The notes below the pieces were generated by a model. It saw only the letters and a list, made by a program, of their open reading frames with translations, did not search any database and had not been told where the DNA came from. The position numbers and the translations under genes are program-made. This document shows, one piece after another, positions 50,064-54,117 of a DNA stretch of 64,000 bases (within the stretch, counting starts at the first letter, position 1; the number at the start of each line of letters is the position of its first letter). The stretch is from Bacteroidia bacterium. Its GTDB lineage: Bacteria; Bacteroidota; Bacteroidia; Flavobacteriales; Flavobacteriaceae. The stretch covers positions 1 through 64,000 of the forward strand of contig JAUIGC010000003.1 in the NCBI GenBank assembly GCA_030429835.1, in the 5' to 3' direction.

Positions 50064-51560
50064 TTAAAATTTAAAACTAAGGCCGCTATATACCCCAACA
50101 GTATAAGGGTTAAAAGTACCGTCTACATTGGAAAAAGTATTCAATTGATATTTGAATACCGGTTCAATATTCAGTCTTAGTTTTGATGAAAACTGATATC
50201 CAAGCCCTAATCCAAAATTGGCGCTAAAGTTTAGGTCGTTTACATTATTGGCCTCACCGATCTGTGTAGTCAAACTGCCAGAAGTCAAATCCACTTCATT
50301 GTCCACGAGGAACAAGGAGCTAACTCCACCTATTACCTGTACACCAAACCTTTTGTTGACCAAGGCGTAACTTAGCTCTACGGGCACCTCCAAGTAACCC
50401 AACTGCTGTGCCATAACACCCGATCTATTGGCAGTTCTTGCCGATACATCGAAGGATTTGCTTCCTGAATTTAGGGTGGCGTTATTCGCCGATACTACCA
50501 GATTTTCCGCAGTTCCGGCATAATCGATATTGGCAATGCGATTCTGGCTTGAAGCCGAAAGGGATGAGGTAAAAAACACGTCATTGGTATCGTAACCGTA
50601 ATCTACCTTGTGTACCCCGGACCTAATGGATAATTTGGGACTTATTTCATAAGCTACGGATAGTCCATAACTCAGGTTGATATTTCCAGATTTTGAATTT
50701 CCGCTGAACATTGGGCTTACAGGAGAACCTTTTCCCAGAGCATCAAAATAGACCGGGGCAATACTAGGCCCGGCAGACCAACGCTTACCGGAACTCTTAG
50801 TCTCTGCGATTTCTTCCTTCTCTAATTCGTTGATTTCATCGTACAAGGATTTTTTGCCTTCAAGCTTGTTAGCCTCCTTATCATCGGAAGTAATCGATTC
50901 ACTACTTGCTATTCCATTTTCATTATTTGTAATCGAATTTGTCTCTTTACTGTTGGGTATTGTTTCCCGCACATCGTTATTTTCAACAGCGGCAATTCCA
51001 GAATCCTGATTTTCCTTGGTATCAATTATGTTTTTGGAAATGGTATTCTGCCCAGAGACTTTTTCGTTAGCCTGAACTATCATATTCGTTTTGGTAGAAT
51101 TGGAATGGATCGGACCCTTCTTTTGGGTACTATTGGCTATTCCATTTTCAAGGGAGTTGATAGAATTTTTCCCATCCTTTTCCATCATGGTATTTTGTTG
51201 CAACGTTTCGCTCCTATTTTCGATTTCCCTTGCATTATCAATATCTGTTACTTTTGTATTCTCCTGGTTAGAATTCAAGGAGTCTAAAATTGATTTGGAA
51301 TCATGGTCCTTATTTTCTACATCTGTAACTCCATTAGCATCTTTCTCTGGAGTGTTATGTTCTTGAAAAGGGTTGAATAGAAATAGGCCTATAATTAGGA
51401 CAGCTGCAATACCTCCCAATTGCCACCACAATGGAAGAATTCTTTTCTTTTTCTTTTTGTCCAAGGAGGCCTCAATGGTATGCCATACCTTTTCGTCTGG
51501 CGTTTCCTCATAGCCCTTGAATTTTTCTTGGAACAATTCGTCTAAATACTTCTTACTCAT
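50064..51560 (-). CDS. Anti-sigma-like protein fused to outer-membrane beta-barrel (Dma-like dual membrane-spanning anti-sigma factor candidate)
   Basis: Residues 1-40 cytoplasmic-like, KKKKKR then TM ILPLWWQLGGIAAVLIIGLFLF (41-62), about 200-residue N/S/E/K-rich linker, beta-barrel from about residue 260 ending in ...GVYSGLSFKF (terminal Phe); 36 nt after ECF sigma gene. Confidence 0.8.
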   Translation of the reverse strand: MSKKYLDELFQEKFKGYEETPDEKVWHTIEASLDKKKKKRILPLWWQLGGIAAVLIIGLFLFNPFQEHNTPEKDANGVTDVENKDHDSKSILDSLNSNQENTKVTDIDNAREIENRSETLQQNTMMEKDGKNSINSLENGIANSTQKKGPIHSNSTKTNMIVQANEKVSGQNTISKNIIDTKENQDSGIAAVENNDVRETIPNSKETNSITNNENGIASSESITSDDKEANKLEGKKSLYDEINELEKEEIAETKSSGKRWSAGPSIAPVYFDALGKGSPVSPMFSGNSKSGNINLSYGLSVAYEISPKLSIRSGVHKVDYGYDTNDVFFTSSLSASSQNRIANIDYAGTAENLVVSANNATLNSGSKSFDVSARTANRSGVMAQQLGYLEVPVELSYALVNKRFGVQVIGGVSSLFLVDNEVDLTSGSLTTQIGEANNVNDLNFSANFGLGLGYQFSSKLRLNIEPVFKYQLNTFSNVDGTFNPYTVGVYSGLSFKF

Positions 51561-51596
51561 TTTTAAAAACTCATTTTCTATGGATTCCCAGCGGAA

Positions 51597-52160
51597 TCAT
51601 AAACAATTTCCTATTACAATCACCAAACCAATAATGGATTGGGATATTTTACTTTCAATCTTTTCCTTTAACAACATCCTGGCACGTGCCAGATTGGATT
51701 TAGAGGTTCCCACCGATGTACCCAGTAACTTACTAATTTCATTATGGCTGTAACCGTCCAGCACGTATAGGTTAAAGGTTGTCCTATATTTATTGGGCAG
51801 TTCCTGTATATATTCCAACAATGTTTGGAGCCCAATATCCGCATAGTTTGATTCCAAGGTCACTTCCTCTGGGGTGTTTTCATTGACCAAGCTCAAATAT
51901 TCTTCCCGCCTATATTTTTGTAATACTGTGTTTATCGTAATTCTTTTGACCCAACCTTCAAAAGATCCCTTGGACTTGTATTGACCAATTTTCTCAAAAA
52001 TGGTCATAAAACTATCATGGAGGTTGTCCTCTGCTTCAGTTTTATTACGGGAATATTTTAAGCAAATACCAAATAGAACCCCTGCATATTGTCTATACAG
52101 TTGTTCTTGGGCCTTTCGCTCGCCCTTTTTACATCTATCTACCAGTTCTTCCAGCAACAA
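51597..52160 (-). CDS. ECF RNA polymerase sigma-70 factor
   Basis: LYRQYAGVLFGICLKYSRNKTEAEDNLHDSFMTIFEKI (region 2), LPNKYRTTFNLYVLDGYSHNEISKLLGTSVGTSKSNLARAR (region 4). Confidence 0.94.
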   Translation of the reverse strand: MLLEELVDRCKKGERKAQEQLYRQYAGVLFGICLKYSRNKTEAEDNLHDSFMTIFEKIGQYKSKGSFEGWVKRITINTVLQKYRREEYLSLVNENTPEEVTLESNYADIGLQTLLEYIQELPNKYRTTFNLYVLDGYSHNEISKLLGTSVGTSKSNLARARMLLKEKIESKISQSIIGLVIVIGNCL

Positions 52161-52184
52161 ATCTGTTGGTTATGTTTTTTGTAT

Positions 52185-52601
52185 CTAGTTCACGGGCACT
52201 ACCAATTCTAAAAACTCCGGTTCACCTTCACTATTTTCCCCTTGATAAAATCTAAAAGTGTAAGGCTGGTCGTACTTTACTATAAAGTTAAACGAGGCTT
52301 CTTCTTGGGTTACCATTTGGGTACAAGATACCAAATCTGTCATTGCAACTCCCACGGCGACCACATTTCTTACCGTAGTATCTTCTTTGGTCACATCAAA
52401 ACCCTCATATTGGGTACATCCATCTGGCAGGGAATAGGTCACGTTTATTCTGTAGGTTTCGTTTAGATTAAACGATTCCGGCAATTCCGCACTTTCAATG
52501 GGTAATGACGTGAAATAGAAGTTGGCTTCATCTTCTTCAAGGGAACAGCCTCCCAATATTAGGGAAAACAATACAACCATTAAAGTATATTTCTTAATCA
52601 T
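52185..52601 (-). CDS. Hypothetical lipoprotein in ECF operon
   Basis: MIKKYTLMVVLFSLILGGCSLEEDE lipobox; 24 nt upstream of the sigma factor gene. Confidence 0.72.
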   Translation of the reverse strand: MIKKYTLMVVLFSLILGGCSLEEDEANFYFTSLPIESAELPESFNLNETYRINVTYSLPDGCTQYEGFDVTKEDTTVRNVVAVGVAMTDLVSCTQMVTQEEASFNFIVKYDQPYTFRFYQGENSEGEPEFLELVVPVN

Positions 52602-52626
52602 CCTATACAATCTCTTTTACAAGAAA

Positions 52627-52651
52627 GATGAAAATGTACCCTAATGGTTGC
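52627..52651 (-). promoter_or_regulatory. Candidate ECF-type promoter of the lipoprotein-sigma-Dma-like operon
   Basis: Minus strand GCAACC-N15-CATC, about 26 nt before the MIKK start; AAC-type -35 and ATC-type -10. Confidence 0.4.
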
Positions 52652-52775
52652 GTATTGACCCTTCTTTTTAGGGGTAAAAGATATTTTAATCGTCCAATGA
52701 AACAGTACTGCTATTTCATTGGATTCGAGAAGGAATTTTATTCTTTGAAATTACAGGACTTTGGATAGAGAAAGT

Positions 52776-53783
52776 TTATTTGTTAACCGCATTGATGGCA
52801 TCCCGTATTTTTCCATCCAGTTCTTCCAATAATTCAGGATTGTCCAATAATAATGTTTTTACCGCATCCCTTCCTTGCCCCAGTTTGGTATCTCCATAGC
52901 TGAACCATGAACCACTCTTTTTAATGATTTCGTACTCGACCCCAAGGTCAATAATTTCTCCCACTTTAGAGATTCCTTCCCCGTACATAATATCAAACTC
53001 TGTGGTTCTGAATGGAGGGGCCACTTTGTTTTTGACAACCTTTACACGGGTTTTGTTACCTTGAACGTTACCGTCCGTATCCTTTATTTGAGTGGACCTT
53101 CTAATATCCAATCGAACGGAAGCGTAAAACTTGAGGGCGTTACCTCCGGTAGTTGTTTCCGGGTTCCCGAACATCACCCCGATTTTTTCACGCAATTGGT
53201 TGATGAAAATCACGGTACAATGTGTTTTGCTTATGGAACTGGTCAATTTTCTAAGCGCTTGGGACATCAAACGAGCGTGCAGACCCATTTTGGAATCCCC
53301 CATTTCGCCTTCAATTTCGCTTTTTGGTGTCAGCGCGGCAACAGAATCGATAATAACTATGTCAATTGCCCCGGAACGAATCAGGTTGTCCGCTATTTCC
53401 AAAGCTTGTTCCCCATTGTCCGGTTGGGAAATAATTAAATTATCTATGTCGACCCCTAATTTCTGGGCATAAAAACGATCAAAGGCATGTTCCGCATCAA
53501 TAAAGGCAGCAATACCTCCCTTTTTTTGAGCTTCGGCAATAGCATGTAAAGTAAGCGTGGTTTTACCAGAGGATTCCGGTCCGTAAATCTCTATGACACG
53601 TCCTCTTGGATACCCACCAACTCCCAAGGCAATATCCAGACCCAATGATCCAGATGGAATTACCTCTACATCATCCACAACACTGTCTCCCAATTTCATT
53701 ACTGCACCTTTTCCATAGGTCTTGTCCAGTTTGTCCAGGGTTAGTTTAAGTGCTTTTAATTTGGCTTCTTTTTCAGAACTCAT
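52776..53783 (-). CDS. recA: Recombinase RecA
   Basis: [73 protein letters not shown]. Confidence 0.99.
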
Positions 53784-54005
53784 TTCGTGTTTTTTAGGAC
53801 TGCTAAATTAGTGTTTCTTTTCTTAAAAAAGAATATTCACTTTTATTACGCAACCATTTGAATCTTTTTATATCTATGTAAAAAGCATTGGTTCAAATTA
53901 AGTATTTGCCCATTGTTTTTGGTGTTATTGGTTTTAATGGCCGTTTCCTTATATTTAAACTAACTCATATAATGCTGTGAAGAGGAAAAGTAGGAATGGC
54001 CGAAC

Positions 54006-54033
54006 AAAAAGTCCCGAATTATCGGGACTTTTT
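54006..54033 (+). terminator. Strong intrinsic-type terminator in recA-trhO intergenic region
   Basis: AAAAAGTCCCGA-ATTA-TCGGGACTTTTT then TTT; no annotated gene directly upstream on the plus strand. Confidence 0.75.
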
Positions 54034-54117
54034 TTTGACATCAAACTCCCGCAAACCTTACTTTAGGATTTTATATCTTTGCCGTTCAAAATTTGTTAAC
54101 TTAAATATTAGTATAGC

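Follow-up and report, generated by a model that had tools for sequence, protein, structure and literature searches.

The locus described here most likely encodes an outer-membrane and surface-lipoprotein stress switch. We put the probability at roughly 0.86 that, taken as a whole, it is a Flavobacteriaceae envelope stress switch of the Das-Dma (EcfO-Reo) type. The window, a 64,000-nucleotide stretch of DNA, belongs to a MAG (G000; 3.56 Mb) that its named relatives place in Maribacter and that is 82.6% complete and so incomplete. On its minus strand, recA, a lipoprotein gene, an ECF sigma factor gene, and a gene for a 498-aa protein follow one another in this order, with plsC and trpS as downstream neighbors of the last (Table 1). 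The coordinates given in an earlier note for the last three ORFs (50064-52601), together with the 36-nt gap between the sigma gene and the gene for the 498-aa protein, were borne out.

Table 1. Features of the locus in window coordinates, with the evidence or remarks for each
Feature	Position	Strand	Evidence or remarks
Dma, predicted two-membrane anti-sigma factor (498 aa)	50064..51560	(-)	AlphaFold, Foldseek, Pfam of relatives, conservation
Predicted outer-membrane barrel of eight strands at the C terminus (aa 261-498; last residue F)	50067..50780	(-)	AlphaFold, Foldseek, Pfam
Predicted disordered periplasmic tether (about aa 63-238)	50847..51374	(-)	pLDDT about 30; low identity, narrow length range
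Predicted inner-membrane helix (aa 44-62), KKKKKR ahead of it	51375..51431	(-)	AlphaFold and homologs
Predicted cytoplasmic anti-sigma N terminus (aa 1-40; invariant P21, W26)	51441..51560	(-)	AlphaFold helices; homology to stand-alone anti-sigma proteins
ECF sigma, 187 aa, TTG start, hydrophobic C-terminal tail	51597..52160	(-)	Pfam
Lipoprotein, 138 aa from ATG	52185..52601	(-)	Lipobox LGG-C19, then SLEEDE (LES-like); predicted beta-sandwich; invariant C62, C93
Predicted operon promoter ACGCAACC-N15-CATCT	52626..52653	(-)	Exact match; read as ECF -35/-10 (autoregulation)
recA	52776..53783	(-)	Constant neighbor, between both promoter copies
Second predicted promoter copy ACGCAACC-N15-TATCT	53848..53875	(+)	One mismatch; divergent from recA, toward trhO
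Candidate sigma-dependent small RNA, about 155 nt, start approximate	53880..54036	(+)	Covariation, covariance model, terminator

We compared this arrangement across 80 named Flavobacteriaceae loci (Maribacter, Zobellia, Arenibacter, Flagellimonas, and others), which hold 77 of the lipoproteins and 78 of the sigmas. The order recA-lipoprotein-sigma-Dma was kept in all sufficiently long loci, and plsC and trpS likewise lay downstream in every one that reached far enough. This conservation of the trio and of its recA/plsC/trpS surroundings is far beyond chance. In a genome from another family (L048), the homologous lipoprotein gene follows dma and is not ahead of the sigma gene. More distant Dma-like proteins with sigma neighbors were traced in several further families of the class, and the lipoprotein genes that adjoin these are often different ones. 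Some Maribacter species (L013, L065, L067, and others) carry a DUF3575 gene (∼184 aa, by Pfam) directly after dma that is absent from the window, and some genomes contain second, divergent full-length Dma copies (L050 in G021, G282, and others).

The 498-aa protein is predicted to be a Dma anti-sigma factor. Proteins of this family combine an anti-sigma N terminus, a transmembrane (TM) helix, a long disordered tether, and a C-terminal barrel, and are encoded beside an ECF sigma factor (PMC13088901). The earlier note had proposed this likeness, and both the domain order and the adjacent ECF sigma, which the definition of the family requires, are exactly as published. AlphaFold (47 sequences) predicted helices at residues 3 to 14 and 23 to 34, the TM helix, disorder over residues 66 to 234, a helix at 239 to 254, and eight long strands from 261 to 497 (pLDDT mostly 80 to 93). 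The whole-model pTM of this single-chain prediction was 0.46, a low value that is expected where a protein is largely disordered. The parts that the earlier note had read in the protein, namely, an anti-sigma-like N terminus, a positively charged stop ahead of one TM helix, a disordered linker of ∼200 residues, and an outer-membrane beta-barrel ending in Phe, held up, and the model, which that note had suggested as a check, does contain a barrel. Homologs agreed: the TM helix starts at residue 45 in the median (81 homologs), the tether has a median length of 202 aa (range 173 to 282; 79 proteins), and the terminal residue is Phe in 80 of 81 proteins. OmpA barrels were the best Foldseek matches in the PDB, and 41 of 47 homologs matched Pfam OMP_b-brl_2, the window protein itself falling under the Pfam cutoff. 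The N terminus, with its P21 and W26, was also found in stand-alone single-TM anti-sigma proteins encoded between an ECF sigma gene and a separate barrel gene. Because the same parts exist in fused and split versions, we argue that they work together. Such split versions (sigma, long-tailed single-TM anti-sigma, and separate barrel-like protein) were observed at L052, L051, L161, and L164, with L052 (C279) a probable split version inside the genome of the window. By analogy with Dma1, Dma2, and Reo, the N terminus of Dma would lie in the cytoplasm and bind the ECF sigma, holding it at the inner membrane, and the C-terminal barrel would be inserted in the outer membrane.

Within the genus, per-block identity was roughly 55 to 80% for the N terminus, the TM helix, and most of the barrel (65 to 80% to the window protein over most barrel blocks) and 10 to 20% for most of the tether. 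Since its sequence drifts yet its length stays near 202 residues, the tether appears to be constrained more in length than in sequence. A conserved KKS(I/L)(F/Y)(D/E)EI stretch just N-terminal of the barrel (aa 236 to 254; window 50799-50855, minus strand) is predicted to be helical and is possibly a control element. We suggest that a disturbance of the outer membrane would travel along the single Dma polypeptide, either because it is cleaved or because barrel or tether changes state, and would free the sigma factor. One version of this step, which does not conflict with the main explanation, is RseA-like regulated proteolysis: a periplasmic site-1 protease would cut the tether, RseP would act next, and the barrel would do no more than anchor the protein or sense folding. 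Long unstructured tethers and single TM helices suit proteases well as substrates, and RseA is the classic precedent. We nevertheless regard this version as possible rather than probable, since most of the tether has no conserved block resembling a cleavage site, though its length is kept, and since conservation of the barrel matches that of the N terminus, which a mere anchor would not need.

The gene just ahead of dma was correctly recognized in the earlier note as encoding an ECF sigma (Pfam Sigma70_r2, 2e-12; Sigma70_r4_2, 4e-15), with its start codon now corrected to TTG. Sigma orthologs start with TTG or GTG in 77 of 78 cases, and most Dma genes start with ATG; this difference would be suited to holding sigma below the level of its inhibitor. 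The hydrophobic tail of the sigma factor (SIIGLVIVIGNCL; window 51597-51640, minus strand) is kept in Maribacter and near relatives and not in Flagellimonas, and it is possibly a membrane contact.

Motif discovery in recA-lipoprotein intergenic regions yielded the pattern ACGCAACC-N15-CATCT. The copy ahead of the operon in the window was exact (expectation from shuffling, 0.02). Ahead of the orthologous lipoprotein gene, the motif was exact in 71 of 76 loci and carried one mismatch in the remaining 5, with a spacer of 15 in 75 of the 76; shuffled controls never came under two mismatches. In L048, the genome from another family, it lay ahead of the sigma gene. We then scanned 151 genomes, nearly every one from a different genus, with a spacer of 14 to 15 and counted 455 matches versus 11 for the reversed pattern. 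The motif was found in 124 of 133 Dma-positive genomes, the exact form being absent from the other nine, versus 0 of 18 Dma-negative genomes (Fisher, 5e-17). This distribution is good evidence that the motif is the predicted target of the Dma-linked sigma, which, once freed, would transcribe from such promoters, its own operon included. Could a different ECF sigma bind the motif, the Dma sigma sharing only the neighborhood? The genome of the window has 14 sigma-similar places, and hence many ECF sigmas, and ECF regulons may overlap in Flavobacterium psychrophilum (PMC9723704). However, the motif precedes the operon of the Dma sigma in 76 of 76 loci and the sigma gene even in another family, and every Dma-negative genome lacks it, so that we consider this alternative very improbable. 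Two groups of matches were set aside: those 66 nt ahead of rmlD, where the repeated pattern looks like conserved coding sequence of the upstream gene, and repeated site copies in G160 (spacer CGTGTTTCCTCTTGG), which look like a mobile element. A text search of the literature for this motif together with a sigma factor in flavobacteria found no paper.

To define the predicted regulon, we surveyed the 141 distinct sites behind which the available sequence was long enough. Close ORFs at non-operon sites were mostly small lipoprotein genes, beginning about 15 to 41 nt after the motif. Lipoproteins made up about 42 of 56 such ORFs (a tally that leaves out the six operon orthologs L219, L225, L226, L233, L234, and L314), versus 6 of 207 in the background under the same rule (Fisher, 5e-30) and 7 of 54 in the window (Fisher, 2e-11). 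A common N-terminal pattern among them is C-S-x-D-D, which resembles the signals for lipoprotein export SDDFE of Flavobacterium johnsoniae and SDDDD of Bacteroides fragilis (PMC5080379), with acidic residues mostly at +4 to +6 and not identical to the tested SDDFE. In the genome of the window, sites with at most one mismatch preceded the operon, a family-2 glycosyltransferase gene, three lipoprotein genes, and an RNA divergent from recA; a fourth lipoprotein gene lay behind a motif with a 14-nt spacer, and one further site with at most one mismatch (C331:2439) had no suitable downstream gene. Elsewhere, an LVIVD-repeat lipoprotein behind the motif (L325) was 41% identical to the product of the gene that immediately follows dma in another family, and a serpin-like lipoprotein behind the motif in L334 (G160) was identified by eye.

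Many motif sites without a long ORF precede a 28-codon ORF of the type MKILLIISILIVINLILLTFSVNKKTEP (14 found). The pattern MKI..NLILLxFSVNKKTxP occurs directly behind the motif in many genera (e.g., L307, L284, L318, L330, L203, and L262), with the Maribacter form divergent. The putative 28-residue product, with a single TM helix and a conserved tail, is too short for usual annotation. The predicted output of the sigma factor comprises small lipoproteins with surface-export-like N termini, which would be displayed at the cell surface, a glycosyltransferase that may act on LPS, this microprotein, and a small RNA.

The second promoter copy was found with 0 to 1 mismatch in 65 of 76 loci, and shuffled controls never came below 2. 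Behind it lies the candidate small RNA, and the intrinsic terminator at its end (54007-54036) is conserved and covaries. When 48 sequences were aligned, 94.9% of cells paired and 20 of 21 pairs varied on both sides, a degree of pairing and covariation reached by 0 of 500 shuffles. The covariance model matched the genome of the window with an E value of 5e-15 and 18 genomes with E below 1e-5, always near the Dma locus by coordinates; in other genera, the same place holds shorter versions whose UUGCUAUGAA loop is similar. These data support the predicted RNA structure. An Rfam search of the region returned no significant match, only sub-threshold chance matches. It is quite unlikely that the transcript is merely the 5′ leader of trhO: that gene does lie downstream on the same strand, about 210 to 390 nt past the motif in the loci examined, but in the window the terminator would end the RNA about 80 nt ahead of the trhO start. 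The RNA contains a nearly constant single-stranded element, GCUAUGAARAAGAA. We rejected a small peptide encoded in its AUGAARAAG stretch because the frames disagree between species, and the stretch is read as RNA. In the same sense, this stretch (GCTATGAAA) is similar to the start region found in some mRNAs of the operon lipoprotein (TTTGCTATGAAAAG). The candidate RNA may repress envelope mRNAs.

The earlier note had placed a lipoprotein gene ahead of the sigma gene, as we find, and had suggested that it could encode a ligand or a further sensor. The gene sits first behind the predicted promoter of the sigma factor and is one of many small lipoprotein genes behind such promoters. AlphaFold predicted eight strands for this lipoprotein (mean pLDDT, 88.5), and its matches among PDB folds were Ig/Fn-like and weak. 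NCBIfam and Pfam searches with it returned nothing significant. Membership in the NigD family was rejected, since none of 37 members of the lipoprotein family had a NigD Pfam match; none matched DUF4943 either. Most simply, the gene is an output or feedback gene and not necessarily a ligand. If it were instead the sensor, it would bind the Dma barrel at the surface or in the periplasm, its presence, absence, or misfolding would set sigma activity, and the other regulon lipoproteins would be only effectors. This would suit the only gene other than sigma and dma that is always in the operon, which stays beside them even where gene order has changed (L048) and whose product has two invariant Cys residues besides the lipid Cys. 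We nonetheless judge a sensor role unlikely, because one lipoprotein gene among many behind such promoters fits output or feedback, because Dmas of other families are accompanied by other lipoproteins, and because Phocaeicola has NigD, an output lipoprotein, in the corresponding place.

Systems of this kind are already known as Dma and Reo; the promoter, regulon, small RNA, and microprotein are the new content. In the accessible portions of the Dma and Reo literature, we found no description of a target promoter, nor of a small RNA or microprotein. With one exact motif confined to Dma-positive genomes, outer-membrane-to-cytoplasm signaling in Bacteroidota becomes directly testable. For marine genera that include Maribacter, Zobellia, and Arenibacter, the motif points to target lipoproteins as well as to a conserved small RNA and a microprotein.

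The closest comparison by architecture is with Dma1 to Dma3 and their Das (ECF21) partners in Bacteroides thetaiotaomicron, which share the domain order, the adjacent ECF sigma, and an operon with further genes. Deletion of dma2 there strongly increases expression of das2 and of genes near dma2 (PMC13088901). The present system, likened to these by their published description, belongs to another lineage, has its lipoprotein gene upstream, without a DUF4943 or NigD match in Pfam, and differs in a predicted regulon of lipoproteins, a small RNA, and a microprotein. The closest comparison by output is with EcfO-Reo of Phocaeicola vulgatus. Toxins that damage the outer membrane induce EcfO-Reo, whose targets are nigD surface lipoproteins together with an LPS glycosyltransferase; a nigD lipoprotein gene (M0N98_03762; PMC13114119) is numbered next to ecfO-reo, and the Reo anti-sigma of P. 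vulgatus and B. fragilis is described as reaching from the cytoplasm to the cell surface (PMC9308784, PMC13114119). The two systems share the small lipoprotein-sigma-anti-sigma grouping and the kind of regulon, surface lipoproteins and an LPS glycosyltransferase, which is predicted here from promoters; the lipoproteins of EcfO-Reo are of the NigD family, unlike the operon lipoprotein here as judged by Pfam. Our regulon prediction preceded the comparison with the EcfO-Reo literature, and we regard the likeness of the two regulons as the best support for the proposed function. It also suggests an older and wider theme of the pathway in its lipoprotein output, of which NigD was the first example, seen in gut Bacteroidales. 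Within the same family, F. psychrophilum also has promoters of ECF type (motif SM6) and a small RNA tied to an ECF sigma (Rfp11), and YceA (trhO) is listed with an SM6 promoter; the CGT -10 box and T9SS targets of SM6 (PMC9723704) differ from the CATCT box and lipoprotein targets here.

FecA-FecR-FecI likewise signals from the outer membrane to a sigma factor, but it does so through three proteins that include a TonB-dependent receptor, whereas here a single chain carries both barrel and anti-sigma, and only eight strands are predicted for the barrel. In Enterobacteria, sigmaE drives the sigma-dependent small RNAs MicA, RybB, and MicL. We claim no sequence relation to sigmaE/RseA; the likeness lies in an ECF sigma that would be held by a single-TM anti-sigma, an envelope-stress output, and a sigma-dependent small RNA, a candidate in our case. 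RseA reaches no farther than the periplasm and is cleaved once DegS has sensed unfolded OMPs, whereas Dma has a barrel of its own. Whether Dma and its sigma form a general outer-membrane and surface-lipoprotein stress pathway of Flavobacteriaceae is a wider proposal for which we see the odds as evenly balanced; such a pathway, in which a single protein would do both the outer-membrane sensing and the sigma release, would be an independently evolved counterpart of sigmaE, with a response that includes a small RNA, a microprotein, and many surface lipoproteins.
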